From Paraflavitalea pollutisoli (GTDB lineage Bacteria > Bacteroidota > Bacteroidia > Chitinophagales > Chitinophagaceae), in the NCBI RefSeq assembly GCF_029360705.1, contig NZ_JARKMX010000008.1, positions 3,030,202 to 3,094,201 on the forward strand: a stretch of 64,000 bases of DNA, given 5' to 3'. Position numbers and translations under genes: made by a program. The notes under the pieces were generated by a model. It did not search any database. It was not told the origin of the DNA and was given only the letters and a program-made list of their open reading frames with translations. Shown here one piece after another: positions 44,272 to 60,894 of this stretch. Within the stretch, counting starts at the first letter, position 1, and every line of letters begins with the position of its first letter.

Positions 44272-45474
44272 CTATCTTTTCAGGATCTCATGACCGAGCT
44301 TATCACGTTTGGTAGTCAGGTATTTTTCGTTGTGCGGGTTGGGACAGATCTCGATGGGCACGGCTTCTACGATCTCCAAACCATAACCCAGTAAGCCAGC
44401 CCGTTTGCGTGGGTTGTTACTCATCAGGCGCAGCTTGGTAATGTCCAGGGCACGCATGATCTGGGCGCCGATACCATAATCTCTTTTATCCATCGGGAAA
44501 CCGAGGTGCAGGTTAGCCTCTACGGTATCGTAGCCATTTTCCTGTAGTTTGTAGGCTTTGAGCTTATTTACCAATCCAATGCCTCTTCCCTCCTGATTCA
44601 TATAGATAATAGCGCCTTTGCCCTCTTTTTCTACCATTTCCATGGCCGTGTGTAGCTGATCGCCACAGTCGCAGCGCATGGAACCCAGTATATCACCGGT
44701 AAAGCAGGAAGAGTGCACCCGCACCAGGATGGGTTCATCGGATTTCCATTCGCCCTTGATGAGGGCCAGGTGTTCCACGCCGGTCAGCTTTTCGCGAAAA
44801 GCGACCAGTTTAAAATGGCCCCACTGGGTAGGCATGTCAACCCGTACCACTTCCTCGATAAGACTGTCTTGCTTGAGGCGATATTCGATCAGGTCCTTTA
44901 TAGAAATAAGCTTAAGGTCAAATTTCTTGGCGATCTCCTGCAGTTCGGGCAGGCGTGCCATGGAGCCGTCTTCATTCATGATCTCGACGAGCACACCAGC
45001 AGGCTCAAATCCGGCCAATTGGGCCAGGTCGATGGTCGCTTCGGTGTGTCCGGCACGGCGCAATACGCCACCAGACTTGGCGCGCAGCGGGAAAATATGG
45101 CCGGGACGGCCAAGATCTTCGGGTTTTGTATTGGGATCGATGAGTGCCTGAATGGTTTTGGCCCGGTCATGGGCCGAGATACCGGTGGTGCACCCGTGGC
45201 CTAGCAAATCGATGGAGACGGTGAAGGCAGTTTCGTGCAGGGCGGTATTGTTGTTGACCATGAGGCCCAGTTTCAGTTCTTCGCAGCGCTCTTCGGGAAG
45301 CGGTGCACAGATCAGGCCGCGACCATGTTTGCTCATGAAATTGATGACCTCGGGGGTTACATTTCTCGCAGCAGCCACAAAATCACCCTCATTCTCACGG
45401 TCTTCATCGTCTACCACAATGACCATTTTCCCGTTTTTGATATCCTCTATCGCACTTTCAATAGAATCGAGCAT
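44272..45474 (-). CDS. ribBA: Bifunctional 3,4-dihydroxy-2-butanone-4-phosphate synthase / GTP cyclohydrolase II
   Basis: 400 residues. Two branches of riboflavin synthesis begin here. The N-terminal half (RibB) has [28 protein letters not shown]-type sequence ([16 protein letters not shown]), [12 protein letters not shown] and [13 protein letters not shown]. The C-terminal half (RibA) has [20 protein letters not shown], the zinc cysteines in [15 protein letters not shown], and [19 protein letters not shown]. The start [15 protein letters not shown] is 17 nt after a clear -7 box. No FMN riboswitch is visible in the leader. Confidence 0.97.
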
Positions 45475-45521: not shown

Positions 45522-46110
45522 GGACTGTGTTGAGGAGCAGCGAAAGCTAAACAATTGATTCATAGCAAGTACAAATCACATCATCACCCTGGCCTGCCAG
45601 CAAATGGCTGTAAACGGCACGTATCTCCCTGCAACAGTTGACGTCCGGTGCACCTGTTGCCGTCCGTCTGGGTAATATAACGTCGGTCAACTACAAAAGG
45701 TTGCTGACCAATAACGGGGAGATAATATTATCGGATTGTGACGAAGCAGCACTTTTGAAAATGATGTTGCCCTTATAGGTGCAACCGAATGAATCAAAGG
45801 TCGATCGCCATGGAGTTTGGGTAGTCTTGTACAGATCATCGCTGTGAATAACCTGTGTATCCAATTTTAACGTTTCCTTCGATTTTCTGCTACATTTGCC
45901 GCAACTTAATGAGCGACTAACCTGGATCCCTGATAACTCTCCACCGATTCCTTATGGCCATATGAGGGACATAATAAAAGGTTTTTTACCCAGAAACCCC
46001 TGACTGTTGCAGTGTTTCAAGGGGGAATTAATTATTTGATAATATTACCCTTACCAGTCAGCGAACGAGTTCATTGTTTCTTTGCGCCCGATAAACATAA
46101 ACACGCATAT
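45522..46110. other. Long intergenic region between ribBA and the receptor gene
   Basis: About 590 bp without a convincing gene. It holds a dyad GCAACAG ... CTGTTGC (45631-45660) centred on GGTGCACC, a perfect 12-bp palindrome GATAATATTATC (45721-45732), and a -7-like box TACATTTG (45891-45898) about 210 nt before the receptor ATG. A long 5' leader or a small RNA is possible. Confidence 0.4.
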
Positions 46111-49100
46111 ATGAGAAGATCAACTAAGATCATTTTCTTTCTTTTGCTGGCAATTGTCAGCTGTATGAACGTGGTGGCCCAGGTCACCACCAGTAGTATA
46201 ACCGGCGTTATCAAAACCGACAAGGGTGAACCGCTGGTAGGTGCTACTGTAACCCTCAAACACGAACCGACAGGATCTGTATTCACGGTTGTTACCAGAG
46301 CCGGTGGCCGCTTCGATGTTGCTAATATTCCTCCCGGTGGTCCTTATTCCGTAAAAGTTTCTTATGTCGGCTATTCCGACTTTACAAAAAGTGACATAAA
46401 CATCCCCCTGGGTGAGCGTTATGACCTGGAAGCTACCATCAGTGCAACAGGTACTGAGCTGCAATCTGTTACGATCAGCGCAGGCCGCAGAAGTACAACG
46501 GTGAAGACTGGTGCTTCTACCAATATCAGCAACCGGCTGGTACAGAATCTGCCCAACGTAAGCCGTAGCCTAACCAACCTGACGCGTATCACGCCCCAGG
46601 CGAACGGTAACAGCTTTGCCGGTATGAACAACCGTTACAACAATATCACCATCGACGGTTCTTTGTTCAACAACAACTTTGGCCGTAGTGGCGACGGTAT
46701 GATCCCCGGTGGCGCTTCTTCCGCCATCTCCATCGATGCGGTTGACCAGGTACAGGTAAACATCGCTCCGTATGATGTACGGCAGTCTGGTTTCGTCGGT
46801 GGCGGTATCAACGCCGTGACCCGCCGTGGTACCAACAACTGGTATGGTACAGTGTACGGTTACTACCGCGACCAGTCGTTTAATGGTAAAAAAGTAAAAG
46901 GAGTTGAGTTTGCCAACCCCGATAGGTCTACCAAGATCTATGGTGCCAGCATCGGCGGCCCCATCATCAAGGATAAACTGTTCTTCTTCGTGAACTACGA
47001 GCAGGAGAAAAGAACACAGCCTGGCCAGACTTTCGTTGCAAAGGATGATGCCGGCAGCACTGGCCCAAATGTAACTGGTGTACTGAAAAGCGACCTCGAC
47101 AACCTGCGCACTTACCTGATCAATACCTATAAATATGATCCAGGTGGCTATCAGGGGTATGATTTCGAAACAGAGAACAAGAAGTTCCTGGGTCGTATCG
47201 ATTGGAATATTAGCTCCAAACACCGCTTGAGCTTGCGCTATACTCAGTCAACTACAGATGACGATGATCAGATCAATGCCTCCAGCGGTCCTATCAACCG
47301 TATCAATAGCAATAGCCGCCGTGGCGGCCGCGCTACCGGTGGCATGGCCTACACGGGTTCCAACTTCAAGAACAACACCCAAGTTAAGTCTGGTGTATTG
47401 GAACTGAACTCTACTTTTAGCACTAAGGTATCTAATCAATTGATCGCTTCTTACACTGATAACCAAATCAAGCGCGATCCCAATAGTACTGCCGCTTTTG
47501 TAGACATCATGCGTGATGCCGACAACGTGTATATTTCGTTAGGTACCGATCTGTTCTCATATCTGAACAACATTAGTGATAAGGCCTTCAACATTGCCGA
47601 CAACGTAACACTGAATCTCGGCAAACACACTGTAACAGCTGGTGCCAGCTTCGAAGCCCTTTCTTTCGCTAACTCCTTTACGAGCGGTGCAGGTCCCAGC
47701 TACTACCGTTACGCTTCATTGAACGACTTTATGACCAATAAAGCACCTGTTCAATTTACTGTGGCTTATGACCCTACCAATCGTCTGGGCATAAAAGTTC
47801 CTGAAGCTAAATTTAACCAGTTGGGCATTTATGCACAAGATGTCTTTTCTCCTATCGAGAAACTCAAGCTGACCTATGGTCTGCGTGTGGACCTTCCTTT
47901 CTATCCCTACGATCCTCCGCGCAACCCCGCACTGGAAGCCGTTACCTTTAAAGATGAAAACGGTAACAACGAAAACTTCGACGTGAGCAAATGGCCCAAA
48001 CAACGTCCGTTGTTCTCTCCCCGTGTTGGTTTCACCTTCGATGTGAAAGGCGACAAATCCCTGATCGTTCGTGGTGGTACCGGCCTCTTCACTGGTCGCA
48101 TTCCTTTCATCTGGTTGGTTAACCAGGTGGGTGACAATGGCGTGATCCGTGCAGCTTACACCGCTACGACTGCTGAACTGGCTAATATCCGTTACAATAC
48201 CGACAGAACAACTTATATCCCCAACCCTGTTCCGCCAGTAGGACAAACCATACCTTCCGGTCGTCCTTCTTACTCTGCTGTTGACAAAGATTTCAAAATG
48301 CCACAGGTATGGAGAAGCAACCTGGCTGTAGATAAACGCTTCGCCGGCAACTTCGTAGCTACGGTAGAAGCCATCTATACCAAGCAGATCAACAATGCTT
48401 ACTTCCGCAACGCCAACCTGGGAGCCACTACAGGCAACCTGTCTGGTGCAGATACCCGCCCTGTATATGCTCAATACCTGAACAACAACATCAACCAGAT
48501 GATCGTGTTGGACAATACCAGCAAGGGGTACAGCTTATCGCTGACTGCCCAGATCCAGAAGTCTTTCTCCAACAACTGGGAAGCTGGTCTGGCTTATACC
48601 TACACAGCAGCTAAGGAAGTAGCCATTGGAAGCAGCGACCAAAGCGCGAGTGGTTTCAACACGAACAACATCATTTTCAATCCCAATAGGCCTGACCTTG
48701 GTCAGTCTAACTATGCGATCCCACATCGCATCGTGGCAAACCTGTCTAAGCGCTTCAACTATTGGGGTGGCAGAACGGCAACCACTGTTGGCCTGTTCTA
48801 CAGTGCACAACCACAAGAACGTTACACTTACCGTTATGGATTTGACCTGAACGGTGATGGTCAATCAAACGATGCCTGGTTTATTCCCAAGGATGGCACT
48901 CAGATCAAGTTCCAGGAAGGTTACTCTGTTACTTCAGGTGGTGTAACCAAGGTTTACACTGCACAACAGCAAAGTGACGCCTTCTTCAGGTTGGTGAACA
49001 ACGACAAATACCTGAGCAAACACAAAGGCGAATACATCGAGAAATATGGCCCCGTATTACCATGGGTACATGGTCTGGATGTGCGCGTATTGCAAGATTT

Positions 49101-49377
49101 CATCCTGAACGCCGGTGGCAAAAAGCACACCCTTCAGTTCAGCGTTGATATCATCAACGCGCTGAACCTAATCAACAACGATTGGGGTTATCGCTACCAA
49201 TATACCACTGGTACATTCCAGGATATGGGTATTCTCGGAAAGGGGTCAACCTGGACAAAAGAAAATCCAGTGTACACACTTAATCCCGACACTGCACCTT
49301 CACAAGGTTACCAGCCCGCTTACACTACCGCCAGCACATGGGGTATCCAACTGGGTCTGCGTTATATCTTCAACTAA
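46111..49377 (+). CDS. Oar-like TonB-dependent outer-membrane receptor
   Basis: 1088 residues from the ATG at 46111 (MRRSTKIIFFLLLAIVSCMNVVAQ, signal peptide). A carboxypeptidase-like regulatory domain follows (TGVIKTDKGEPLVGATVTLK ... PYSVKVSYVGYSDF), then a plug domain (NLTRITPQANGNSFAGMNNR, IDAVDQVQVNIAPYDVRQSG) and a beta barrel ending TWGIQLGLRYIFN, whose terminal Phe-Asn fits outer-membrane insertion. The stretch GGGINAVTRRGTNNWYGTVY is typical of the Oar subgroup. No SusD-like gene is next to it, so it is not a classical polysaccharide uptake pair. Substrate unknown. Confidence 0.94.
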   Translation: MRRSTKIIFFLLLAIVSCMNVVAQVTTSSITGVIKTDKGEPLVGATVTLKHEPTGSVFTVVTRAGGRFDVANIPPGGPYSVKVSYVGYSDFTKSDINIPLGERYDLEATISATGTELQSVTISAGRRSTTVKTGASTNISNRLVQNLPNVSRSLTNLTRITPQANGNSFAGMNNRYNNITIDGSLFNNNFGRSGDGMIPGGASSAISIDAVDQVQVNIAPYDVRQSGFVGGGINAVTRRGTNNWYGTVYGYYRDQSFNGKKVKGVEFANPDRSTKIYGASIGGPIIKDKLFFFVNYEQEKRTQPGQTFVAKDDAGSTGPNVTGVLKSDLDNLRTYLINTYKYDPGGYQGYDFETENKKFLGRIDWNISSKHRLSLRYTQSTTDDDDQINASSGPINRINSNSRRGGRATGGMAYTGSNFKNNTQVKSGVLELNSTFSTKVSNQLIASYTDNQIKRDPNSTAAFVDIMRDADNVYISLGTDLFSYLNNISDKAFNIADNVTLNLGKHTVTAGASFEALSFANSFTSGAGPSYYRYASLNDFMTNKAPVQFTVAYDPTNRLGIKVPEAKFNQLGIYAQDVFSPIEKLKLTYGLRVDLPFYPYDPPRNPALEAVTFKDENGNNENFDVSKWPKQRPLFSPRVGFTFDVKGDKSLIVRGGTGLFTGRIPFIWLVNQVGDNGVIRAAYTATTAELANIRYNTDRTTYIPNPVPPVGQTIPSGRPSYSAVDKDFKMPQVWRSNLAVDKRFAGNFVATVEAIYTKQINNAYFRNANLGATTGNLSGADTRPVYAQYLNNNINQMIVLDNTSKGYSLSLTAQIQKSFSNNWEAGLAYTYTAAKEVAIGSSDQSASGFNTNNIIFNPNRPDLGQSNYAIPHRIVANLSKRFNYWGGRTATTVGLFYSAQPQERYTYRYGFDLNGDGQSNDAWFIPKDGTQIKFQEGYSVTSGGVTKVYTAQQQSDAFFRLVNNDKYLSKHKGEYIEKYGPVLPWVHGLDVRVLQDFILNAGGKKHTLQFSVDIINALNLINNDWGYRYQYTTGTFQDMGILGKGSTWTKENPVYTLNPDTAPSQGYQPAYTTASTWGIQLGLRYIFN

Positions 49378-49502: not shown

Positions 49503-50327
49503 TTACTCCTCCCCCGGTCCTCTCCATCCCCATTTCAGGAAAGTCGGCAAAGCCTTGGCCCAGGTAGGTACATCATGCTTGCCCTTGGGCAATTGCAGGT
49601 AATACATGTCCCGCAGGTCTTTGTATCCCTTCAGCAGCAATTCGCGCATCAGGTCGATGGTATCGTCGATAGAATCAATGACGCCATTGCGGTTGCGGTC
49701 TTCCGTCTCATCGAGTAATCCACACTGAAAGAAGAATTTCTGTCCAGGGTGATAATCCCCTTCCCGCACCTGCACGTGCATCATGCGGTGTTTATTGCCA
49801 TTGTAATCCCGGGCATCCTTGTCTTTGGAGCGCCACCACAGCGACCCGGAGAACACGCCTACCTTAGTAAACACCTCCGGATGGTTCCACACCATATCCA
49901 TGGCACTCAGTCCACCCAGCGAAAAGCCTGCGTAGGCCCTGTCGCGGAAAGCGGTAGCGTTGACATGTCCATAAATAAAAGGCAACAGTTCTTCCAATAC
50001 AAAGCGCTGATAGGCAGCTCCTTTGGCGCCACGGCCCATATAATCGGGACCAATGGCCATGCCGTATTCATGCAGGCGGTCTTCACCGCAATGAATGCCG
50101 GCGACGAGCAAAGGGGTTATTTGGCTGGTTTCGGACAGGTAACCAAGCATCTTATCAAATCCCATGGCCTCCAGGTCCTGTCCGTCGTTGACGAGCAACA
50201 AACTGGTTTCCTCAGGTCGGGTGGCGGGGTGGGTTCGATACAAATTCACGGTTACGGTACGTCCCAGCAAATCAGATGGCAAGGCAACGGTCTCAACCAA
50301 GATGCCGGTACTAGTCTCAATGTGCAT
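49503..50327 (-). CDS. Esterase D-like alpha/beta hydrolase with a Ca-loop-like insert
   Basis: 274 residues from the ATG at 50327 (MHIETSTGILVETVALPSDL); no signal peptide. The nucleophile is Ser136 in YAGFSLGGLSAM, the acid is probably in GLLDETEDRN and His251 in KGKHDVPTW completes the triad. The overall layout matches the putative-esterase/enterochelin-esterase family. Between the last strands is DRNRNGVIDSIDD (about 210-222), an EF-hand-like Asp/Asn loop. It is divergent from the ATP-grasp gene, with a shared promoter region, and may release or process the product of that cluster. Confidence 0.88.
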   Translation of the reverse strand: MHIETSTGILVETVALPSDLLGRTVTVNLYRTHPATRPEETSLLLVNDGQDLEAMGFDKMLGYLSETSQITPLLVAGIHCGEDRLHEYGMAIGPDYMGRGAKGAAYQRFVLEELLPFIYGHVNATAFRDRAYAGFSLGGLSAMDMVWNHPEVFTKVGVFSGSLWWRSKDKDARDYNGNKHRMMHVQVREGDYHPGQKFFFQCGLLDETEDRNRNGVIDSIDDTIDLMRELLLKGYKDLRDMYYLQLPKGKHDVPTWAKALPTFLKWGWRGPGEE

Positions 50328-50356
50328 ATGGCCGCAAAAGTAGGGATTTTCACAAA

Positions 50357-50388
50357 TTTGGTATTTCCCCGGCATTCAGATAAATTTG
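50357..50388 (+). promoter_or_regulatory. Promoter of the ATP-grasp/GCS2 operon
   Basis: TTTG (50357-50360), exactly 20 bp, TAAATTTG (50381-50388): a full match to the Bacteroidota consensus. It predicts a leader of about 130 nt before the ATP-grasp gene. A minus-strand -7 box TACTTTTG (50335-50342) for the esterase lies within 15 bp, so the two promoters are packed back to back. Confidence 0.75.
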
Positions 50389-50523
50389 GTTGCAACTCTC
50401 ACAATCCTCCTAGATCATTAAAAACGAGCGCATATGATAGCCCGGGCACAACGTTCTGAAGGTCAATTTGGCGTCCGCCAGCAGTCATTATCGCTCATTT
50501 AATCATAAAAAACTCAGGACAGC

Positions 50524-51477
50524 ATGAAAAAGATCGGCATTCTTTTCGGTAAGGAAAGGTCCTTCCCCATGGCTTTTGTGGAAAGGATCAACAGCAAGGG
50601 GATCAACGATATCGTCGCCGAACCGGTACACATCGACAAAGTGATCCAGGGAGCCGCCGATGAATATGCCGTCATCGTAGACCGCATTTCGCAGGATGTG
50701 CCTTTTTACCGGGCTTTTCTGAAAAATGCCGCCATCTGTGGTACCGCCGTCATCAACAACCCCTTCTGGTGGAGTGCCGATGAGAAATTTTTCAACAACT
50801 GCCTCGCCGTGAAGATCGGGGTGCCTGTTCCTAAAACCGTCATCCTCCCCTCTTTTGAACTACCACCCGATACCACCGACCAGTCGTTCAGCAACCTGAA
50901 TTACCCGCTCGATTGGGAATCGATCTTCAACTACGTCGGATTTCCCGCATACATGAAACCCTTCGCAGGAGGTGGCTGGAAGAACGTGTACAAGCTGCAC
51001 AACATGGATGAGTTTTACCAACGGCATACAGAAACCGGTCAGCTGGTCATGTTGCTGCAGGAAGAGATCATCTTCACCGAATATTACCGTTGCTATTGCA
51101 TTGGGGGCAAGCATGTACGCATCATGCCCTATGAGCCACGCAACCCACATCACCTGCGCTACACCAGCGATTTCCACCCCACGCCCGAAAGGCTGCAACA
51201 GATGGAAGACATCGTCTTGCGCATCAACCAGTACCTGGGCTACGATTTCAATACCGTAGAGCTGGCCATACGGGACGGCATCCCCTACGCGATCGACTTC
51301 TGCAATCCGGCGCCGGATGCCGACCTGCCGAGTGTAGGAGAAGACAATTTCAACTGGGTGGTGGAAACGGCCGCCAACTATGCCATCGAAAGGGCACTGA
51401 CACAGCAGCCCGGCCGTGATAACCTGACCTGGGGCGAATACATTAAACACAGCGCGGCCAAAACACCCCTTGTGTGA
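50524..51477 (+). CDS. RimK-like ATP-grasp ligase
   Basis: 317 residues, cytosolic. It starts MKKIGILFGKERSFPMAFVE. The ATP-grasp core is readable: Lys145 in PAYMKPFAGGGWKNVYKL with the glycine-rich loop (149-151), the adenine-hinge region VMLLQEEI (about 175-182), and the metal-binding IDFCNPAPDAD (about 257-267) with the Asp and Asn typical of the family. Such enzymes join a carboxylate to an amine through an acyl phosphate. It is 33 nt before a GCS2 ligase gene in the same operon, so both probably act on one molecule. Substrates unknown. Confidence 0.88.
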   Translation: MKKIGILFGKERSFPMAFVERINSKGINDIVAEPVHIDKVIQGAADEYAVIVDRISQDVPFYRAFLKNAAICGTAVINNPFWWSADEKFFNNCLAVKIGVPVPKTVILPSFELPPDTTDQSFSNLNYPLDWESIFNYVGFPAYMKPFAGGGWKNVYKLHNMDEFYQRHTETGQLVMLLQEEIIFTEYYRCYCIGGKHVRIMPYEPRNPHHLRYTSDFHPTPERLQQMEDIVLRINQYLGYDFNTVELAIRDGIPYAIDFCNPAPDADLPSVGEDNFNWVVETAANYAIERALTQQPGRDNLTWGEYIKHSAAKTPLV

Positions 51478-51510
51478 TAATACGCTCCCACCAAACATTC
51501 AATCTAATCA

Positions 51511-52623
51511 ATGGGAAATACGAATTACAAACAATTCACACTGGGCATCGAAGAAGAATACATGGTGCTGGATCCCAACACCCGTGAACTGAAAAGTCAC
51601 GAACAACGTATTGTTTCCGAAGGGCAGAAAGTGATCAAAGACAAGGTCAAGGCAGAAATGCACCAGGCCGTTGTGGAGGTAGGAACAGATATCTGTCAGA
51701 ATGTAGACGAGGCGTACCACGATGTAGCCACCCTGCGCAAAACCATTGGCGGCATTGCCGGTGAACTGGGCTTTGCCATGGGCGCCGCCGGCACCCACCC
51801 CTTCAGCCACTGGGAGAGCCAGCTCATCACCGATCATGTCCGGTACAATGAGATCGTGAACGAACTACAGGAAGCTGCCCGCAGCAACCTCATATTCGGC
51901 TTGCACGTGCACGTGGGTATGGAAAGCCGGGAGATGGCCAATCACATTGCCAACAGCACCCGTTATTTTCTACCGCATATCTATGCACTGAGTACCAACT
52001 CGCCCTTCTGGGAAGGCCGGCAAACCGGGTACAAGTCGTTCCGCACAAAGGTGTTCGACAAGTTTCCCCGCACCGGTATTCCGGAAACCTTCGAATCGAT
52101 CGAGGCGTACGACAACTACATCAAACTGCTCGTCAAAACCAACTGTATCGACAATGCGAAGAAGATCTGGTGGGACCTGCGCGTACATCCTTTCTTCAAC
52201 ACTGTCGAGTTCAGGATCTGCGATGTACCGATGACCGTATCGGAAACCATCGCCATTGCAGCGCTCTTCCAGGGCGTGTGCGCCAAGATATACAAGCTGC
52301 GCAACCAGAACCTCAACTTCATTCAGTATTCGCGTGCCCTGATCAATGAGAACAAGTGGCGCGCCAGCCGGTACGGCATTGATGGCCGCCTCATCGATTT
52401 TGGTAAAGAAGAAGAGGTCAATGCCCGCGTACTGATCTATGAGTTGCTCGACTTCATCGATGATGTGGTAGACCCACTGGGCAGCCGCCATGCGGTGAAC
52501 TATGTGGCCCGCATGATGGAGGAAGGCACCGGCGCCGACCGCCAGCTGAAAGTGTTTGAGCAAACACAAAGTCTGACCAGCGTCGTGGACTACATCAAAG
52601 ACCAGTTTCTGGCAGGCATTTAA
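51511..52623 (+). CDS. Carboxylate-amine ligase, GCS2/YbdK family (COG2170)
   Basis: 370 residues. The family start is unmistakable: FTLGIEEEYMVLDPNTREL, followed by GTHPFSHWES, NLIFGLHVHVGMESREMA, LSTNSPFWEGRQTGYKSFR and VEFRICDVPMTVSE. The fold is glutamine-synthetase-like and family members such as YbdK show weak glutamate-cysteine ligase activity. True substrates of most are unknown. It is the second gene of the operon with the ATP-grasp ligase and is followed by a terminator. Confidence 0.94.
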   Translation: MGNTNYKQFTLGIEEEYMVLDPNTRELKSHEQRIVSEGQKVIKDKVKAEMHQAVVEVGTDICQNVDEAYHDVATLRKTIGGIAGELGFAMGAAGTHPFSHWESQLITDHVRYNEIVNELQEAARSNLIFGLHVHVGMESREMANHIANSTRYFLPHIYALSTNSPFWEGRQTGYKSFRTKVFDKFPRTGIPETFESIEAYDNYIKLLVKTNCIDNAKKIWWDLRVHPFFNTVEFRICDVPMTVSETIAIAALFQGVCAKIYKLRNQNLNFIQYSRALINENKWRASRYGIDGRLIDFGKEEEVNARVLIYELLDFIDDVVDPLGSRHAVNYVARMMEEGTGADRQLKVFEQTQSLTSVVDYIKDQFLAGI

Positions 52624-52641
52624 GGACAATATTATTTTTAT

Positions 52642-52673
52642 ACAGTGCCGATCCACACCCGGATCGGCACTGT
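52642..52673 (+). terminator. Terminator after the GCS2 ligase gene
   Basis: ACAGTGCCGATCC / GGATCGGCACTGT, a 13-bp perfect stem with a 6-nt loop, followed by CGTTTCTATACATTTTT. The T run is not immediate. Confidence 0.7.
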
Positions 52674-52739
52674 CGTTTCTATACATTTTTCCGATACCTT
52701 TAATAACCCTGCCCGCGCACACCAAAACACGTCGACACC

Positions 52740-54386
52740 ATGAAGTTATGTTTACCCGTCTTACTTTGTTTGTTAGGGGGTTCGCTGCAGGCGCAGCAAA
52801 AGATCGATACCGCGGCCATCTCCCGGGCAGCTTACCTGATAGACCTGTCGCTGACAGCCCCCGAAAAAGATTCCATGACCGATGGACTGTACGACAACCT
52901 CACGCATTATCGCAAAATGCACCAGCTGGCCATTCCCAATGACCTGGCTTATCCTTTTGCGTTTCATCCCGGCCCGCCAGGGACTGCCATACCGGTAAAG
53001 CAAAACGCTGTACATTGGTATATCCCCTCCAATGTATCGATGCCACGTAACAAAGAAGACCTGGCTTTCTATTCATTGATCCAATTGGCTTCCCTCATAC
53101 GGTACAGAAAGATCAGCTCCGTAGCACTCACAACCTTCTTCCTCGACCGGTTGCGTAAATGGGGCGACACGCTCGAGTGTGTGATCACCCTTACACCCGA
53201 GCTGGCGTTACAAGAAGCCGCAGCCGCCGATGAAGCCCTGCGCAAAGGGCAATACAAAGGACTGCTGCATGGTATACCATACGGGTTGAAAGACCTGTTT
53301 GCCGTAAAAGGTTATAAAACGACCTGGGGATCGGTGCCGTACAAAGACCAGGTGATCGACCAGGATGCTTTTGTCTATACCCAGTTAAAAGCTGCCGGCG
53401 CTGTCTTATGTGCCAAGCTGACCCTGGGCGAACTGGCCTACGCCGATCGATGGTTTGGTGGCCGCACCCGCAATCCCTGGAACCTCGCCACAGGATCCAG
53501 CGGCTCCTCCGCCGGTTCGGCCGCTGCCACGGTAGCAGGCTTGCTGCCTTTCGCCATTGGCACAGAAACCTGGGGCTCTATCGTATCTCCTTCGCATACC
53601 TGTGGCGCCACCGGCTTGCGCCCCACCTTTGGCTCGGTGAGTCGCAGTGGTGCGATGGTGCTGAGCTGGAGCCTCGACAAGGCAGGCCCCATTTGCCGCA
53701 GTGCAGAAGATGCAGCCATTGTATTTCACTACCTGAAAGGATCCGATGGCAAGGATGCCAGTGCCGTAGAGCGCGCCTTCAATTATACCGGCAAAGTAAA
53801 CCTCACCCAACTGCGCATCGCTTATGCCGGCAATTACTTCAGGAACCTGCCTGCCAATGCACCGCAATGGGCTGTACTGGAAACCCTGCGCAACGGAGGC
53901 GCCATCATCAAAGAAGTGGAATTCCCCGACTCGACGATCTATCCCTTCAACATCATGGATGTGGTGATCAGTTCCGAATCAGCAGCGGCCTTTGATGAGC
54001 TCACCCGCAGCAACCAGGACGACCTCATTAGCCGGCAGGACAAAAACTTTTGGCCCAACAGTTTCCGGGTATCCCGTTTTGTGCCGGCGGTGGAATACAT
54101 CAATGCCAACCGCCACCGCGCCCGCCTCATCGAACAGCTCCATGCCTTCACGCGTCAATACGACGTGATCATCGTGCCTACCTATGGCGGCAACCAGCTG
54201 GCCATGACCAACCTCACCGGTCATCCCGTGGTGGTATTGCCGGTTGGCTTCAGCGCGAACGGTATGCCGACGAGTATCACCTTATTGGGTAACCTGTACG
54301 ACGAAGCAACGATACTGGCCGTGGCCAAGGCCTACCAGGAGGCTACTTCCTTCCATACCAAACATCCGGCAAAATTCACCCGGTAA
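52740..54386 (+). CDS. Secreted amidase (amidase-signature family)
   Basis: 548 residues with signal peptide MKLCLPVLLCLLGGSLQAQ. The Ser-cisSer-Lys catalytic machinery is visible: Lys in HGIPYGLKDLFAVKGYKTTW, the Gly/Ser-rich signature NLATGSSGSSAGSAAATVAG and TETWGSIVSPS. The last 100 residues carry ARLIEQLHAFTRQYDVIIVP and PVVVLPVGF, standard for the family. An N-terminal extension of about 110 residues precedes the domain. It hydrolyses amides in the periplasm or outside. The next gene (amidohydrolase) follows after 42 nt, suggesting an operon. Confidence 0.93.
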   Translation: MKLCLPVLLCLLGGSLQAQQKIDTAAISRAAYLIDLSLTAPEKDSMTDGLYDNLTHYRKMHQLAIPNDLAYPFAFHPGPPGTAIPVKQNAVHWYIPSNVSMPRNKEDLAFYSLIQLASLIRYRKISSVALTTFFLDRLRKWGDTLECVITLTPELALQEAAAADEALRKGQYKGLLHGIPYGLKDLFAVKGYKTTWGSVPYKDQVIDQDAFVYTQLKAAGAVLCAKLTLGELAYADRWFGGRTRNPWNLATGSSGSSAGSAAATVAGLLPFAIGTETWGSIVSPSHTCGATGLRPTFGSVSRSGAMVLSWSLDKAGPICRSAEDAAIVFHYLKGSDGKDASAVERAFNYTGKVNLTQLRIAYAGNYFRNLPANAPQWAVLETLRNGGAIIKEVEFPDSTIYPFNIMDVVISSESAAAFDELTRSNQDDLISRQDKNFWPNSFRVSRFVPAVEYINANRHRARLIEQLHAFTRQYDVIIVPTYGGNQLAMTNLTGHPVVVLPVGFSANGMPTSITLLGNLYDEATILAVAKAYQEATSFHTKHPAKFTR

Positions 54387-54428
54387 TGGTAGATTTGACG
54401 TCCAACCAATAAATCACCGATCTACAAA

Positions 54429-56057
54429 ATGAGAAAACTCTACGGATTATTCCTGCTGTCTGCGCTCTGCTCCTGCGCAGGTAAAAAGCAAGCAGACCTC
54501 CTGGTATACAATGCCACCGTTTATACGATCGACTCGTCGTTCAGTACTGCTGAGGCTGTTGCTGTAAAAGATGGTAAGATCATTGCCACCGGTACCACCG
54601 CCGATCTGCTGGCGCAATACGATGCCACCACCAAAAACGATGCCCAGGGCAAATTCATCTACCCCGGCCTGATCGATGCGCATGCCCATTTTCTGCAATA
54701 TGGTATGAGCTTGCAAACCGCCAACCTGGTAGGCACCGATAGCTGGGAGCAAATCCTGCAACAATTACAAACCTTTGCTGCTGCCAATCCCGAAGGATGG
54801 ATCATTGGCCGCGGTTGGGACCAGAACGATTGGATCAATAAAGAATTCCCCAGCAACGACAAGCTGAACGAGTTGTTTCCCGGCCGACCGGTATTGCTGA
54901 CCCGGGTGGATGGGCATGCCGCCGTGGCCAACCAAACCGCGCTGGACCTGGCCGGTGTAAAACCCGGTTTTACGCTGACCGGAGGTACCGTAGAGGTAAA
55001 GGATGGTCGGCTGACCGGTCTGCTCGTCGACAATGCCGTAGACCTGGTAGCGGCGAAAATACCAACACCCACACCCGACCAGGTGAGCAAGGGCTTGCTG
55101 GCTGCCCAGCAGAACTGCTTTGCCATGGGCCTTACCACCGTCGACGATTGTGGCCTCGACCATGAAGCCGTGACCTTCATCGATAGCCTGCAAAAAACGG
55201 GACAGCTCAAAATGCGGTTGTATGCCATGCTGAGCGATGCCCGCAAGAACTACGAATTTGCCTTTGCCAAAGGCAAGATCAAAACCGACCGGCTGAACGT
55301 TCGCGCCTTCAAAGTATATGCGGATGGCGCGCTGGGTTCACGCGGTGCCTGCCTGCTGGAGCCTTATAGCGACCGCAAAGACTGGAAAGGCTTTTTGCTG
55401 AGCGATCCCGCCCATTTTGATTCGGTGGCCAACCTACTCTACAGCAAAGATTACCAGATGTGCACCCATGCCATTGGCGACTCAGGCAATCGCACCATCC
55501 TCAACATCTATGGCAAATACCTCGCTGGCCAAAACGATCGCCGCTGGCGCATCGAGCATGCCCAGGTAGTGAATGAAAATGATTTCAAACTGTTTGGCCA
55601 ATACAGCGTGATTCCTTCTGTACAACCGACGCATGCCACTAGTGATATGTACTGGGCGGGTGACCGGCTGGGTGAGCACCGCGTGAAAGGAGCCTATGCT
55701 TTCAACGACCTGTTGAAGCAGAATGGCTGGATTCCCCTGGGCACCGATTTTCCGGTGGAAGATATTTCTCCCTTTAAGACCTTCTATGCCGCCGTCGTAC
55801 GGAAAGATGCAAAGGGATGGCCAGCGCAAGGTTACCAAATGGAGAATGCGCTATCCCGTGAAGAGGCGCTGCGTGGCATGACGATCTGGGCCGCCAAATC
55901 CAATTTTGAAGAGCTGGAGAAAGGAAGTCTGGAAGCCGGCAAGTTCGCCGACTTCATCATCACTGATAAAGACCTGCTGAAGGCGGCCCCTGCCGAATTG
56001 TTGCAGATCAAGGTGCTCGCTACTTACCTGCAGGGAGAGAAAGTATTTGGGAAATAA
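54429..56057 (+). CDS. YtcJ-like metal-dependent amidohydrolase, lipoprotein
   Basis: 542 residues. The N-terminus MRKLYGLFLLSALCSCAGKK has a lipobox (LCSC, Cys16). The TIM-barrel amidohydrolase motifs are YPGLIDAHAHFLQYG (first metal His pair), GWIIGRGWDQNDW, THAIGDSGNRTIL, RIEHAQVVNENDF and GTDFPVEDISPFKTF (metal Asp). This is the COG1574 group, often annotated as N-acyl amide or exo-enzopeptidase-like hydrolases. Substrate unknown. It ends exactly where the convergent phosphodiesterase gene ends. Confidence 0.93.
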   Translation: MRKLYGLFLLSALCSCAGKKQADLLVYNATVYTIDSSFSTAEAVAVKDGKIIATGTTADLLAQYDATTKNDAQGKFIYPGLIDAHAHFLQYGMSLQTANLVGTDSWEQILQQLQTFAAANPEGWIIGRGWDQNDWINKEFPSNDKLNELFPGRPVLLTRVDGHAAVANQTALDLAGVKPGFTLTGGTVEVKDGRLTGLLVDNAVDLVAAKIPTPTPDQVSKGLLAAQQNCFAMGLTTVDDCGLDHEAVTFIDSLQKTGQLKMRLYAMLSDARKNYEFAFAKGKIKTDRLNVRAFKVYADGALGSRGACLLEPYSDRKDWKGFLLSDPAHFDSVANLLYSKDYQMCTHAIGDSGNRTILNIYGKYLAGQNDRRWRIEHAQVVNENDFKLFGQYSVIPSVQPTHATSDMYWAGDRLGEHRVKGAYAFNDLLKQNGWIPLGTDFPVEDISPFKTFYAAVVRKDAKGWPAQGYQMENALSREEALRGMTIWAAKSNFEELEKGSLEAGKFADFIITDKDLLKAAPAELLQIKVLATYLQGEKVFGK

Positions 56058-57332
56058 TTAGCGTAAGATCTTTCGTAATACGCCCGGCTCGCTGTCGACG
56101 GGATGATCAACGGTCAAGCCCAGCAGCTGGGTGATCAAGGTATACACGTGAATGTTTTCAAAAGAAGCCAATGGCTTCTTTTGTTTTTTAATAGCAGGTC
56201 CCCAGGCCATAAAGCTGGCCTGCATGTCTTTCACCAGTCGTGGATCGTACCCGTGGCGGCCGGGGTACACGCGGCGGTTGGTCCAGGAAAAGATCTGCGG
56301 ATAGCGGGCTATCAGTAAAATGTCGCCGATGCGATTATACCGGTCATCCCGCTCACCGTAGTGCCAATGCGCTGGTGTTTCGTTGCGCAGGTATACATCA
56401 TATCCATTGGCGTCCCGCTTTAGCTGCTGGTAAAAAGCAGGAATGGCGTTGCTGTCTTTGGCATAATACTGCACCATCACATCGCTGGCCACCATCATCC
56501 ACCTCGTCATATCCGAAGTAGGTGGCGTCAACACCTGGGTCGTATCCACACCAGTCATGCCATGATCGGAAACCATTACATAGTTGATGGGCAGGTGCAA
56601 CGAATCGAGCATGCTCGTCAGTTGACCAATGGCCCGGTCCACCTTATGGATGGCTTGTATGGTGAGTGGATGATCTGGCCCGAAATGATGGCCGGCACTG
56701 TCGACCTCGGAGATGTAAAAATGGATCAGGTGCGGACGTGTTGCTGCAGGTAGTTGCAACCATTGCTTCACCACACCCAGCCGCGCTTCGAGTGGTACTT
56801 TTTCACTATAGTCGTAGTAATAGGTGGGGTGCACGCCATCGATCGCCACTTCACTACCCACCCAATAATAAACAGCCGAGATCAGTTGCTGCTGCTCGGC
56901 CAATACCCACAAGGGCTTGCCGCCATAGTAATAGGGATCGCCGGCAATGGAGGTATCGGAGCGCAGGTAGCTTACTTTACGGGCACGATCATAAAAAGTA
57001 TTGCCCACCAGTCCGTGGTGCGCCGGATATAGGCCGGTGACGATGGTATAGTGATTGGGAAAGGTAAAGGAGGGAAAAGAGGGCGTCATCGAGGAGGCCC
57101 GCACGCCCTGGCGGCTTAGACGCAGCAGGTTGTCAGCGTGGTACTTCGTCGCATAGTCGTGCCGGAACCCATCGATGGAGATCAGGATCACATAGGGCTT
57201 TGCCTGCTGCGCGGAGCTGTTGTACCCGCCTGCCACGATGTGCTGCGCGGTATCATTTGGCTGTGCCTGCACGGCCACCACTGTCAGCAAAAGACAGCAT
57301 AGGGTATACCCTGTGATGTGTCGGAAAAACAT
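56058..57332 (-). CDS. Secreted ectonucleotide pyrophosphatase/phosphodiesterase
   Basis: 424 residues with signal peptide MFFRHITGYTLCCLLLTVVAVQA. An alkaline-phosphatase-superfamily phosphodiesterase: metal Asp in VILISIDGFRHDY, nucleophile Thr in PSFPSFTFPNHYTIVTGLYP, further metal ligands in SEVDSAGHHFGPDHP and VSDHGMTGV, and a last His in YPGRHGYDPR. It cleaves nucleotide or other phosphodiester bonds outside the cytoplasm. It is convergent with the amidohydrolase gene without any gap. Confidence 0.93.
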   Translation of the reverse strand: MFFRHITGYTLCCLLLTVVAVQAQPNDTAQHIVAGGYNSSAQQAKPYVILISIDGFRHDYATKYHADNLLRLSRQGVRASSMTPSFPSFTFPNHYTIVTGLYPAHHGLVGNTFYDRARKVSYLRSDTSIAGDPYYYGGKPLWVLAEQQQLISAVYYWVGSEVAIDGVHPTYYYDYSEKVPLEARLGVVKQWLQLPAATRPHLIHFYISEVDSAGHHFGPDHPLTIQAIHKVDRAIGQLTSMLDSLHLPINYVMVSDHGMTGVDTTQVLTPPTSDMTRWMMVASDVMVQYYAKDSNAIPAFYQQLKRDANGYDVYLRNETPAHWHYGERDDRYNRIGDILLIARYPQIFSWTNRRVYPGRHGYDPRLVKDMQASFMAWGPAIKKQKKPLASFENIHVYTLITQLLGLTVDHPVDSEPGVLRKILR

Positions 57333-57393
57333 AGGCCTGGTATTGGTTCTTCAATAACCGACAAAGTAAGTCTATGGGCGGCAAATGGGCAGC

Positions 57394-57424
57394 TTTCTTT
57401 TTCCGGTCAAATCCATTAGTTTTG
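57394..57424 (+). promoter_or_regulatory. Promoter of the SGNH hydrolase gene
   Basis: TTTC (57394-57397), 19 bp, TAGTTTTG (57417-57424), a full match to TAnnTTTG, 23 nt before the ATG. Confidence 0.55.
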
Positions 57425-57447
57425 ACCACCCAACTCCAAATAAGCAT

Positions 57448-58110
57448 ATGAAAAAAGTACTTGTCCTTACTGCACTCATCGCCAGCCTGATGGCGTTTAC
57501 CCTCGCTCCGCAAAAACAGCGTATCGTTTTCTTTGGCGACTCCATTACCCAGGCGGGTGTAAAGCCAGGTGGTTATATCACCGTATTGGGCGACCTGCTG
57601 AAAAAGAAAAACATCCAGGATGAATTGATTGGCGCTGGCATCGGCGGCAACAAAGTATACGATCTGTACCTGCGTATGGAAGACGATGTGCTGGCTAAAA
57701 ATCCAACGACGGTGGTAGTTTGGGTCGGCGTCAATGACGTTTGGCACAAAAAGACCTCCGGCACCGGTACAGACGCCGACAAGTTTGAAAAATTCTACAA
57801 TGCCCTCATCAAGAAATTGCAGGCAAAGAATATCAAAGTATTGATCTGTACACCAGCGGCGATTGGTGAAAAGACCGACTTCACCAATGAACTGGATGGC
57901 GACCTCAACCGATATGCCGTCATCATTCGCCAGATCGCCAAAAACAACAATGTGGAGCTGATCGATCTGCGCAAGGCATTCCTCGAGTACAACCTGGCCA
58001 ACAATCCTGAGAACAAAGCCAAGGAAATCCTCACCACCGATGGCGTTCACCTCAACGACAAAGGCAACCAACTGGTGGCGGAGCAAATGCTGAAAGCCCT
58101 GTATAAATAA
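57448..58110 (+). CDS. SGNH/GDSL-family hydrolase
   Basis: 220 residues from the ATG at 57448 (MKKVLVLTALIASLMAFTLA, signal peptide). The SGNH blocks are all present: GDSITQAG with the nucleophile Ser, GIGGNKVYDL (Gly), WVGVNDVW (Asn) and TDGVHLNDKG (Asp-x-x-His). It probably acts as an esterase or deacetylase on an acylated glycan or lipid in the periplasm. Monocistronic with a strong terminator. Confidence 0.93.
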   Translation: MKKVLVLTALIASLMAFTLAPQKQRIVFFGDSITQAGVKPGGYITVLGDLLKKKNIQDELIGAGIGGNKVYDLYLRMEDDVLAKNPTTVVVWVGVNDVWHKKTSGTGTDADKFEKFYNALIKKLQAKNIKVLICTPAAIGEKTDFTNELDGDLNRYAVIIRQIAKNNNVELIDLRKAFLEYNLANNPENKAKEILTTDGVHLNDKGNQLVAEQMLKALYK

Positions 58111-58159
58111 ACGGAGCGGCCACGATCGCACCTCTTGCGATCATTCCGACAACTGATAC

Positions 58160-58189
58160 AGCTGCGCCATGATGGCGCAGCTTTTTTTT
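58160..58189 (+). terminator. Terminator of the SGNH hydrolase gene
   Basis: AGCTGCGCC, loop ATGAT, GGCGCAGCT followed by a run of eight Ts. A second hairpin, GATCGCA / TGCGATC, lies just upstream (about 58124-58142). Confidence 0.93.
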
Positions 58190-58374
58190 GCGTTTTACTG
58201 AAGTAATTGGTTATATGGTCGCTACAATAGTGGCAGGTAGTTTGTCGTTGACAATTTGACCTTTTCGCTGGCGCAGATGATATTTTCAGGCAACCAATTG
58301 ACGCCATAACCTGTTATCATGTTGTGATGCGAACAGGCAAAAAGCTAAAAATCCTTAAGTTTGCACGCAGGTAT

Positions 58375-59214
58375 ATGAGTGAACAAAAACACATACGTAT
58401 CGCAATCCTCGACCTCTATGAAGGGCAGGCCAACCAGGGCATGCGCTGTATCCGGGAATTGCTGACCCAGTTTGGCGTGGAGCAGGAGCTCCGGATCAGC
58501 TGGGATGAGTTTGATGTACGCCTCAAACAAGAACTACCCGATCTTTCCTACGACCTGTATATTTCCAGTGGTGGGCCCGGCTCGCCCCTCGACAGCGAGG
58601 GCAGCGATTGGGAAAACCGCTACTTCGACTGGCTCCGGTCTGTAGCCGCCTACAATGCCAATGAGCAAAATACCATCAAAAAACAGGTGTTGTTTATCTG
58701 CCACTCTTTTCAGCTGGCCTGTCGCTACTTCCAGGTAGCAAAGGTGGCGAGGCGCCGCTCCACGGCATTTGGCGTGTTTCCGGTGCACATGCTGGAATGT
58801 GGACTGGAAGAGCCAGTATTTACCGGGCTGCAAGATCCCTTTTATGCCGTAGACAGCCGCGATTACCAGGTCATCAAGCCTGATAGCAAACAAATGCGTA
58901 AGCTGGGCGCCTCCATCCTGGCCATTGAAAAAGAACGCCCGCATGTACCGCTGGAAAGGGCGATCATGGCCATGCGCTTCAATCCCTATATGATCGGCAC
59001 CCAATTTCATCCGGAGGCCGATGCCACTGGTATGAGCCTGTACCTGCAACGGGAAGACCGCAAGCAAACCGTGATCGAGAACCATGGCTTTGAAAAATGG
59101 CAGTCGATGATCGAACAGCTCAACGATCCCGACAAGATCCTGTATACGTATTCGCACATCATTCCCAATTTTTTGAAGCAGGCCATCAACGACCTCATCG
59201 CCGTAGAAGCATAA
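58375..59214 (+). CDS. Class I glutamine amidotransferase-like protein
   Basis: 279 residues from the ATG at 58375 (MSEQKHIRIAILDLYEGQAN). The frame is open 51 nt further upstream, but a -7 box TAAGTTTG (58356-58363) lies there. The triad is Cys109 in LFICHSFQLACRYF, His212 and Glu214 in GTQFHPEADATG; the oxyanion strand is ISSGGPGSPLD. It differs from GMP synthase domains by a long N-terminal spacer and an 60-residue C-terminal extension. It probably transfers or removes an amide nitrogen. It precedes the divergent ATP-grasp gene by 153 nt. Confidence 0.88.
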   Translation: MSEQKHIRIAILDLYEGQANQGMRCIRELLTQFGVEQELRISWDEFDVRLKQELPDLSYDLYISSGGPGSPLDSEGSDWENRYFDWLRSVAAYNANEQNTIKKQVLFICHSFQLACRYFQVAKVARRRSTAFGVFPVHMLECGLEEPVFTGLQDPFYAVDSRDYQVIKPDSKQMRKLGASILAIEKERPHVPLERAIMAMRFNPYMIGTQFHPEADATGMSLYLQREDRKQTVIENHGFEKWQSMIEQLNDPDKILYTYSHIIPNFLKQAINDLIAVEA

Positions 59215-59367
59215 TAACCGTGTAGTTGCCTTTACCACAAGTCTTCCATATGTAGCCAGGCGCACTGATTCCATCGGCATACCTGTTGCGCAATGCCGTC
59301 AATACTTCGCGCCCCGCACGTATATACGTTGGTGTAAATTCGTATCTTCCCACCAAATCAAGCCGTC

Positions 59368-60561
59368 ATGGTACCAAGCCTGCGCAAAGTGTACAACGAA
59401 GTCTTTACCGTTGAGCGATTCCAACAATTCCTGACCGACCTGGACAGCCATTATCCCGGCGCCATCGAGTTTCGCCTGGCGGAGACGCCAGTATTTGTGA
59501 GCAAGGAATTTGCCCAAAAACTTTTCGAGGCCTGTGAAAGCATCATCGACGTGATCACCGACCCCTCGTTCAAAGACCTCACCGACCGCTCGATGCCGCC
59601 CGGAGAAAGGGTACCCAATGAAAATGACCATGCTCATATGATCGCCTTCGACTTTGGCGTGTGTGAAGATGGACAGGGTGGCCTGGTACCTCAGCTCATC
59701 GAGATGCAGGGCTTCCCTACCCTGTTCGGGTTCCAGGTTCACTTCCCCGACCTGCTCCGTAAATACTTCCCGGTGCCCGACAACTATTCCCAATACCTCA
59801 ACGGGCTGAACCACGACAGCTACCTCAGGCAGTTGAAGGAAGTGATCGTCGGCAATACACCCGTAGAAAATGTGATCCTGCTGGAGATCAAACCGCATGA
59901 CCAAAAAACAAGGATCGACTTCTATACCACCCACGACTACCTGGGCATTGCCATCGTTTGCATTACCGAACTGATCCAGGAAGGTAAAAAACTATACTAC
60001 CTGCGCGATGGCGTTAAAACGCAAGTAAAGCGCATCTACAACCGGGTGATCTTCGATGAGCTCAAAGCCAAAAAGGATACCTTGGGCAGCCATGTCGATA
60101 TCACCCAGGATCTCGATGTGCAATGGATCCCCCACCCCAACTGGTTTTACCGCATCAGCAAGTTCACCATCCCCTTTATCCGCCATGTGTATGTGCCGGA
60201 AACCTGGTTTGTGAATGAGTTGAAGCAGGTACCCGGCGACCTGGAGAATTATGTGTTGAAGCCGCTGTTCTCCTTTGCGGGGCAAGGCGTCAAGATCGAT
60301 GTAACACAGGAAGACATTGTGAACCTGACAGACCCGGAAAACTGGATCCTGCAACGCAAGGTAAAATACGCCGACGTGATCCCTACCCCCGATGTACCCG
60401 CCAAGGTAGAGATCCGCATCATGTACCTGTGGCAGGATGGATGGCAAAGGCCCAGGCCGGCCATCAACCTGGCGCGCCTCAGCAAAGGGAAGATGATCGG
60501 CGTGGATTACAACAAGAACAAAGAATGGGTTGGCGGCAGCGTCGCCTTTTTTGAGCAATAG
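59368..60561 (+). CDS. Divergent ATP-grasp-like protein of unknown function
   Basis: 397 residues, cytosolic. An N-terminal half of about 280 residues has no motif I know (EMQGFPTLFGFQVHFPDL and LLEIKPHDQKTRIDFY stand out). The C-terminal 120 residues look like an ATP-grasp module: Lys298 and the glycine loop in ENYVLKPLFSFAGQGVKI, WILQRKVKY (hinge), VEIRIMYLW and PAINLARLSKG. The order resembles glutathionylspermidine-synthase-like or permuted ATP-grasp enzymes. Predicted to form an amide bond. It sits between the amidotransferase gene and a cupin gene (15-nt gap), so the three may form one unit. Confidence 0.7.
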   Translation: MVPSLRKVYNEVFTVERFQQFLTDLDSHYPGAIEFRLAETPVFVSKEFAQKLFEACESIIDVITDPSFKDLTDRSMPPGERVPNENDHAHMIAFDFGVCEDGQGGLVPQLIEMQGFPTLFGFQVHFPDLLRKYFPVPDNYSQYLNGLNHDSYLRQLKEVIVGNTPVENVILLEIKPHDQKTRIDFYTTHDYLGIAIVCITELIQEGKKLYYLRDGVKTQVKRIYNRVIFDELKAKKDTLGSHVDITQDLDVQWIPHPNWFYRISKFTIPFIRHVYVPETWFVNELKQVPGDLENYVLKPLFSFAGQGVKIDVTQEDIVNLTDPENWILQRKVKYADVIPTPDVPAKVEIRIMYLWQDGWQRPRPAINLARLSKGKMIGVDYNKNKEWVGGSVAFFEQ

Positions 60562-60576
60562 CGTTAACTTTACTGC

Positions 60577-60894
60577 ATGCAACACCTCGACGACATCAAA
60601 GGAAAAGAGATCGTGCCGGGCTATTTCGGGCGCTTTGTACATGGCGACAAGATCACCCTGTCGTTTGTAGACATCAAGCAAGGGCATCCCTTGCCCGAGC
60701 ACCAGCATCCGCACGAGCAGGTCACCTTCATCCTGGAGGGCGAACTGGAAATGATCATCGGCGGAGAGAAAATGGTATTGACGCCCGGCATGGTGCATGT
60801 AATACCGGGCAACACGCCCCACAGCGCCATCGCGCTGACCGACGTGCGGGTGCTCGATGCTTTTTCGCCCGTGCGGGAAGATTATCGCCTTTAA
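60577..60894 (+). CDS. Single-domain cupin
   Basis: 105 residues. The first cupin motif is GHPLPEHQHPHEQVTFILEG (His42, His44, Glu47 as metal ligands) and the second is TPGMVHVIPGNTPHSA (His82). Minimal cupins of this type are metal-dependent oxygenases, isomerases or small-molecule sensors. It starts 15 nt after the ATP-grasp-like gene, so it belongs to that transcript and may act on the same product. A strong terminator follows. Confidence 0.92.
   Translation: MQHLDDIKGKEIVPGYFGRFVHGDKITLSFVDIKQGHPLPEHQHPHEQVTFILEGELEMIIGGEKMVLTPGMVHVIPGNTPHSAIALTDVRVLDAFSPVREDYRL

Follow-up and report, generated by a model that had tools for sequence, protein, structure and literature searches.

A candidate three-ligase amide ligation module in Paraflavitalea pollutisoli and other Bacteroidota

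YgiC, YjfC, glutathionylspermidine synthetase and the (homo)glutathione synthetases are circularly permuted ATP-grasp ligases. The gene neighbourhoods of predicted amidoligases were reportedly surveyed by Iyer et al. in 2009. Several operons are on record in which different ATP-grasp ligases are linked with COOH-NH2 ligases, often for successive ligations (PMC4431377). In the operon for the osmoprotectant N-acetylglutaminylglutamine amide (NAGGN; PA3459-PA3461 type), a ligase and an amidating enzyme make a non-ribosomal dipeptide amide, and an aminopeptidase gene lies in the operon (PMC8070244). RimK, finally, is established as a ligase paired with the hydrolase RimB (PMC11957791). Here we describe a locus at positions 49503-60894 of a 64,000-nucleotide stretch of DNA (the window, 3030202-3094201 within the 8.76-Mb genome of Paraflavitalea pollutisoli), in which three predicted ligases accompany a protein resembling class I glutamine amidotransferases (GATases).

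The locus shares with the predicted amidoligase neighbourhoods the linkage of ATP-grasp and COOH-NH2 ligases, and with RimK-RimB the pairing of a RimK-like ligase and a putative hydrolase. RimB is a retropepsin, whereas the locus described here has a class I GATase-like or, elsewhere, an M29-like protein and two further ligases. The NAGGN operon uses one ligase and the window's module three; a NAGGN system was rejected, since no asparagine synthase-like or GNAT domain was found by Pfam among the ten window proteins scanned. Systems of this predicted kind are thus already known; the variant described here brings in a new ligase family and is widely and conservedly distributed. We found no account of this gene set in the open-licence full-text literature, a scope outside which the 2009 survey lies, and we know of no product made by it.

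We think it likely, with some reservation, that the genes listed below form one inherited module for ATP-dependent amide ligation, in which three ligases in turn build a small intracellular peptide or amide:

49503..50375, minus strand: esterase (E), divergent from G1; PF00756, 68.7 bits
50524..51477, plus strand: RimK/LysX-like ATP-grasp ligase (G1); no Pfam family at E ≤0.01; TIGR00768, 24.7 bits (cut-off 143.4)
51511..52623, plus strand: GCS2/YbdK-type carboxylate-amine ligase (GCS2); PF04107, 202.4 bits (cut-off 21)
58375..59214, plus strand: class I GATase-like protein (GAT); PF00117, 34.6 bits (cut-off 22.8)
59368..60561, plus strand: predicted ATP-grasp ligase of the glutathionylspermidine/glutathione synthetase class (G2), named from its predicted fold; no Pfam or NCBIfam family
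60577..60894, plus strand: small cupin (CUP; Cupin_2)

The open reading frames (ORFs) lie where a first-pass annotation of this DNA had placed them, and their families were checked by scanning the ten window proteins against Pfam (families at E ≤0.01) and NCBIfam. G1 and GCS2 are separated by 33 bp and G2 and the cupin by 15 bp, spacings that would fit co-transcription, while 5.75 kb separates GCS2 from GAT.

To see how the genes co-occur, we used G2, G1, GCS2 and GAT as queries against 149 genomes of the window's order and obtained 50, 50, 33 and 49 raw matches, respectively; one G1 match of 34% identity (in G020) was dropped. G1 and G2 then occurred together in 48 genomes, with G1 only in one and G2 only in two. 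GAT and G2 occurred together in 49 genomes, GAT never without G2 and G2 once without GAT. All three of G1, GAT and G2 are present in 48 of the 51 genomes that have any of them, and 98 of the 149 genomes have none. The three partial genomes have the look of fragmented drafts: in G046 a 90-residue piece of G2 stands at the start of a contig, G131 has a cut GCS2 beside GAT and G2, and G066, a genome of about 550 contigs, has G1 and GCS2 only. Since five families hold both holders and non-holders (16 and 2 in f1; 8 and 7, plus one partial, in f3; 9 and 9 in f12; 3 and 2, plus one partial, in f14; 11 and 7 in f18), presence changes as a block. This suggests concerted gain or loss on more than one occasion.

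Where the genes lie close together, their order is conserved. Of the 48 genomes with both genes, 25 have G1 and G2 within 20 kb of each other, always on the same strand. All four genes are found in 31 genomes of the order, and in the 14 where they lie within 15 kb they always follow the order G1>GCS2>GAT>G2 on one strand. Another 17 genomes have no GCS2 match but have the rest, 11 of them with G1>GAT>G2 within 15 kb, again with order and strand kept (11/11). The two blocks at 50524-52623 and 58375-60894, which the first-pass annotation had linked as a candidate amidoligase system, are one syntenic unit in many genomes, contrary to the outcome (no linkage in other genomes) that the annotation had named as refuting; its observation is confirmed and its interpretation partly supported.

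A profile search with G2 gave at least 567 confirmed contigs, of which we examined 80 named ones; 16 of these also hold G1, and 12 of the 16 keep order and strand. The loci L082-L121, L122-L201 and L253-L312 were chosen for carrying these genes and include some genomes more than once; counts over loci therefore describe the arrangements and do not estimate their frequency. In L150, L152 and L167 a divergent esterase is followed by a tight run of G1-GCS2-GAT-G2-cupin, with all four intergenic gaps at 9-21 bp in L152 and L167. Looser copies, with GCS2 and GAT 2.5-5.6 kb apart, occur in Niastella (L123, from Niastella yeongjuensis DSM 17621, and L125), Longitalea (L127) and others. The window holds an interrupted copy of this latter type, with a 5.7-kb insert of genes for exported hydrolases.

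The module also extends beyond the order. We searched 296 genomes of the phylum (at least 90% complete) with G1 and G2 at E ≤0.001 and GAT at E ≤1e-20, and found raw matches for G2 in 92, G1 in 110 and GAT in 70. After weak or distant matches were dropped (G1 in G020, G153, G197, G230, G352 and G421; G2 in G191), G1 and G2 were present together in 88 of the 296 genomes, G2 only in three and G1 only in 16. GAT occurred in 15 of the 16 genomes with G1 and no G2, and G1 in 69 of the 70 GAT genomes; G1 is the most widespread member of the module. Eight fetched loci read G1>CP-ATP-grasp>GAT, with one ATP-grasp protein in the slot of GCS2 and G2. Of two such CP-ATP-grasp proteins, one scores above the cut-offs of PF14403 and PF04174 and the other falls short of them. 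A mobile-element or phage origin was rejected, as plasmid records searched with G2 and phage records searched with G1 gave no match at E ≤1e-5; G1 was not searched against plasmids, nor G2 against phages.

We next consider the ligases themselves. A structure of G2 was predicted from 40 sequences (mean predicted local distance difference test score, pLDDT, 92.9; predicted template modelling score, pTM, 0.91) and compared with the PDB by Foldseek. There were 19 matches at E ≤0.001, all of them glutathionylspermidine synthases, (homo)glutathione synthetases, glutathione synthetase-like proteins or YgiC/YjfC; the next match had an E-value of 0.36. G2 is therefore predicted to have the fold of the glutathionylspermidine/eukaryotic-type glutathione synthetase class, and its identity as an ATP-grasp protein follows from this predicted fold. 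The model supports the first-pass call of a second, divergent ATP-grasp-like protein at 59368-60561. D95, E112 and Q114 are invariant in the G2 alignment and presumably correspond to the metal-binding site of the glutathione synthetase class. At the sequence level the best support is a profile match to YgiC (E 4.8e-5), which also ranks first in a PDB sequence search (E 0.036). The PF03738 model (GSP_synth, cut-off 29.3 bits) did not match the window's G2, but reached 4 of 24 G2 members at E ≤0.1 (best 2.8e-4; 15.6 bits in the L095 protein).

Some other results on G2 weigh against the proposed ligation module. The structural matches have TM-scores of 0.42-0.63, root-mean-square deviations of 6-11 Å and 11-16% identity; G2 is like YgiC/YjfC and the glutathionylspermidine and (homo)glutathione synthetases in predicted fold and unlike them in sequence and in lacking a PF03738 match. 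The profile match to YgiC spans 80 columns only, with a probability of 68, and profile comparisons with E. coli glutathionylspermidine synthetase (E 0.22) and with the CP-ATP-grasp alignment (E 0.014) were not significant. The 12-kb surroundings of gss and ygiC in E. coli K-12 contain no annotated GCS2, RimK-like ligase or GATase-like protein, unlike those of G2. YgiC is named peptide-spermidine ligase in RefSeq, and YgiC and YjfC have been termed peptidylpolyamine synthetases (PMC12568646, citing Pederick et al. 2023), yet YgiC itself is described as lacking glutathionylspermidine synthase activity (PMC12506659).

G1 is related to RimK. All 21 G1 members scanned match the RimK family TIGR00768 at E ≤0.001 (best 2e-12), in keeping with the RimK-like ATP-grasp protein of the first-pass annotation. 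The window's G1 does not reach the curated RimK cut-off, and because of this we call it RimK-like and not RimK. K104 (at least 90%), K145 (invariant) and R189 are kept in the G1 alignment; with positions assigned by eye, these appear to be the residues expected of a peptide-forming ATP-grasp enzyme, for which a general rule on the arginine has been given (PMC4431377). In the R2K clade of ATP-grasp proteins the linker lysine is lost and a second lysine or arginine lies in the RAGNYA loop (PMC4431377). The retention of both K104, judged by eye to be the linker lysine, and K145 would speak against R2K; the R2K_2 model gave weak matches in 14 of 21 G1 members (best 2.4e-5). Compared by profile, G1 and G2 gave no match. 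Long Lys/Ala/Pro-rich C-terminal tails were seen on the G1 proteins of L114 (7900-9273, minus strand), L118 (5457-6638, plus strand) and L119 (7930-9078, minus strand); the window's G1 has no such tail, and the histone H1-like HC2 model matches one of 21 members. GCS2, as first proposed, is a GCS2/YbdK-type protein, passing the curated cut-offs of NF010039 (527 bits, cut-off 371) and TIGR02050 (290.8, cut-off 176.4) in addition to that of PF04107. It is the sole PF04107 match found in the window's genome.

GAT scores above the PF00117 cut-off, and its Cys109, His212 and Glu214, which we take to be the Cys-His-Glu triad of class I GATases, are invariant in 22 of 22 sequences. The family named in the first-pass annotation is thereby borne out. 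GAT has a sub-threshold match to the homoserine O-succinyltransferase family PF04204 (18.2 bits, cut-off 27), and among solved structures it matches 3l7n (E 1.9e-4) and homoserine O-succinyltransferase (E 0.0013); because of these structure matches, a role in acyl transfer is possible. An hhalign comparison with the E. coli gamma-glutamyl hydrolase PuuD gave an E-value of 0.0025 and a probability of 11.7 over 45 columns.

A replacement of GAT bears on its role. An M29 aminopeptidase-like protein follows GCS2 in four loci, with G2 next in three (PF02073, 63.5 bits in L275). Orthologues with at least 59% identity to the probe were found in five of 37 genomes tested, the probe's own included, and none of the five has a GAT match; 14 further genomes have only M29-like copies of 27-31% identity. 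Since the M29-like protein fills the GAT slot in these five genomes, we consider a hydrolase role for GAT at least as likely as an amidotransferase role. No GAT match was found for L303 and L304 (f32). In contrast, a loss of GAT in family f36, where L285, L309 and L310 read G1>GCS2>G2, was rejected because GAT lies elsewhere in those genomes.

The esterase and the cupin recur beside the ligases. E is divergent beside G1, or beside F5 where this small alpha/beta hydrolase precedes G1, in 31 of the 91 G1 neighbourhoods with an upstream gene; F5 itself lies before G1, in the same orientation, in 34 of the 91. The cupin is the next same-strand gene after G2 in 13 of the 79 named-contig loci listed and in one of 31 further loci. 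At least in the Chitinophagaceae, both genes belong to the module. F5 does not adjoin G1 in the window; the contig that carries the window has an F5-like match (183.8 bits) at a distance of about 3 Mb. In L256 (9105-10804), L259 and L269, three loci of one genus, F5 is preceded by a same-strand pair resembling an ABC ATPase and an ABC-2 permease, a possible exporter.

The genes between GCS2 and GAT in the window are as follows:

52740..54386, plus strand: amidase; signal-like N-terminus; insertion, probably not core
54429..56057, plus strand: amidohydrolase (AH3); lipoprotein-type signal; insertion
56058..57332, minus strand: type I phosphodiesterase; signal-like N-terminus; insertion
57385..58110, plus strand: GDSL hydrolase; signal-like N-terminus; insertion

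All four have signal-like N-termini by eye, and no signal sequence is visible by eye in E, G1, GCS2, GAT, G2 or the cupin. These starts and the inconstant occurrence of the exported hydrolases led us to reject them as core members. The first-pass annotation had allowed that the hydrolases at 52.7-58.1 kb might belong to the system or be unrelated. As a group they are an insertion, yet two of them recur immediately before GAT: an AH3-type amidohydrolase in 8 of 96 GAT neighbourhoods, some of them in Chitinophagaceae, and a GDSL hydrolase in 4 of the 63 named-contig loci listed. A relative, L102, shares the order G1-GCS2-amidase-amidohydrolase. As the amidohydrolase precedes GAT in some loci without GCS2, it may have a looser link to the module in the Chitinophagaceae.

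Other neighbours were also noted. A further ATP-grasp protein (F10) lies beside the module in eight loci, five of which (L097, L119, L120, L273 and L278) also have an adjoining M17 leucyl aminopeptidase; the window's genome gave only a 19.4-bit match to F10. A gene resembling type 2 asparaginase/isoaspartyl peptidase is found no more than about 4 kb from the module in L262 (13386-14375; PF01112, 264 bits), L268 (2046-3023) and L308 (15191-16186), the latter two copies assigned by clustering. Near the module in the window are a TonB-dependent receptor-like gene (46012-49377) and a ribBA-like riboflavin gene (44272-45474), both named by eye; similar genes flank the module in several Chitinophagaceae, probably by plain synteny. 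No transporter family was prominent across the clustered neighbourhoods, so the product is probably intracellular.

Beyond the computed co-inheritance, conserved order, families, folds and catalytic-looking residues, we infer ligase activities, an order of steps and a hydrolytic role for GAT. G1, GCS2 and G2 would each activate a carboxylate for coupling to an amine, in up to three cytoplasmic steps, and the product would be a small peptide-like or peptide-polyamine-like molecule. Because of its enzyme class, G2 would add the final cap to a short peptide. By analogy with YgiC/YjfC and the glutathionylspermidine and (homo)glutathione synthetases, its most likely role would be to cap a short peptide, perhaps a gamma-glutamyl one, by joining an amino acid or polyamine to the C-terminal carboxylate. 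GAT may hydrolyse or trim an amide bond or, less likely, deliver ammonia or transfer an acyl group, while the esterase or esterases and the cupin may modify or remove a substituent.

Several observations weigh against a single module of this kind. In 23 of the 48 genomes of the order with both, G1 and G2 are not within 20 kb of each other; 19 of these have them on separate contigs and four on a shared contig at a distance above 20 kb. GCS2 is unmatched in 17 of 49 G1 genomes of the order and GAT in 36 of 91 G2 genomes of the phylum. Two (G149, G154) of the seven GAT-less genomes tested also have no M29-like protein. Four of the 16 named contigs listed with G1 and G2 depart from the common arrangement, GAT being inverted in L126, while in L130, L137 and L189 the two blocks adjoin but converge. 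The genomes share ancestry, so their counts are not independent, and the fold model of G1 is poor (pLDDT 66.6).

Of the alternatives, a protein- or ribosome-modifying tag system survives best, although we consider it unlikely. Here G1 would add residues to a protein terminus and hydrolases would remove them, as in the established RimK-RimB pair (PMC11957791). The RimK-like nature of G1 and the Lys/Ala/Pro tails of a few G1 proteins (L114, L118, L119) agree with this. Conversely, the clustered neighbourhoods contain no recurring gene for a dedicated protein substrate, the window's G1 falls far below the RimK cut-off (24.7 against 143.4 bits), and the glutathione synthetase class is generally associated with small-molecule ligations. 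Slightly harder to sustain is the idea that G1-GCS2 and GAT-G2 are two independent metabolic units, neighbours by old synteny only. The 23 genomes with separated blocks favour it, as does the retention of TonB-dependent receptor-like and ribBA-like genes beside the module in Chitinophagaceae. It sits badly with the finding that 48 of the 51 genomes with any of G1, GAT and G2 have all three, those with split blocks included, with an order preserved in several families, and with the swap of GCS2 and G2 for one ATP-grasp protein between G1 and GAT. Least probable is a pathway for a low-molecular-weight thiol in place of glutathione or bacillithiol, with GCS2 making gamma-glutamylcysteine and G2 completing the thiol. 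Glutathione synthesis does use these two types of enzyme, a GCS2 protein and one of the glutathione synthetase class, but GCS2 is unmatched in the 17 G1 genomes noted above. BshC (PF10079) of bacillithiol synthesis was found in 135 of the 149 genomes of the order including the window's, and 46 of the 48 that have G1, GAT and G2 also have BshC, which argues against replacement of bacillithiol; the product could at most be an additional thiol.

Returning to the single ligation module, we can offer a more specific reading, which we hold as a doubtful conjecture. The pathway, present in roughly three in ten of the Bacteroidota genomes sampled, may make a glutathionylspermidine-like peptide-polyamine or another capped gamma-glutamyl peptide alongside bacillithiol; G2 would then found a new ligase family, and ligase and peptidase parts would be exchangeable. 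The natural swaps, of GAT for an M29-like protein and of GCS2 and G2 for one CP-ATP-grasp protein, offer a way into the chemistry. If the module works as proposed, much of a phylum would make a small molecule that has been overlooked.

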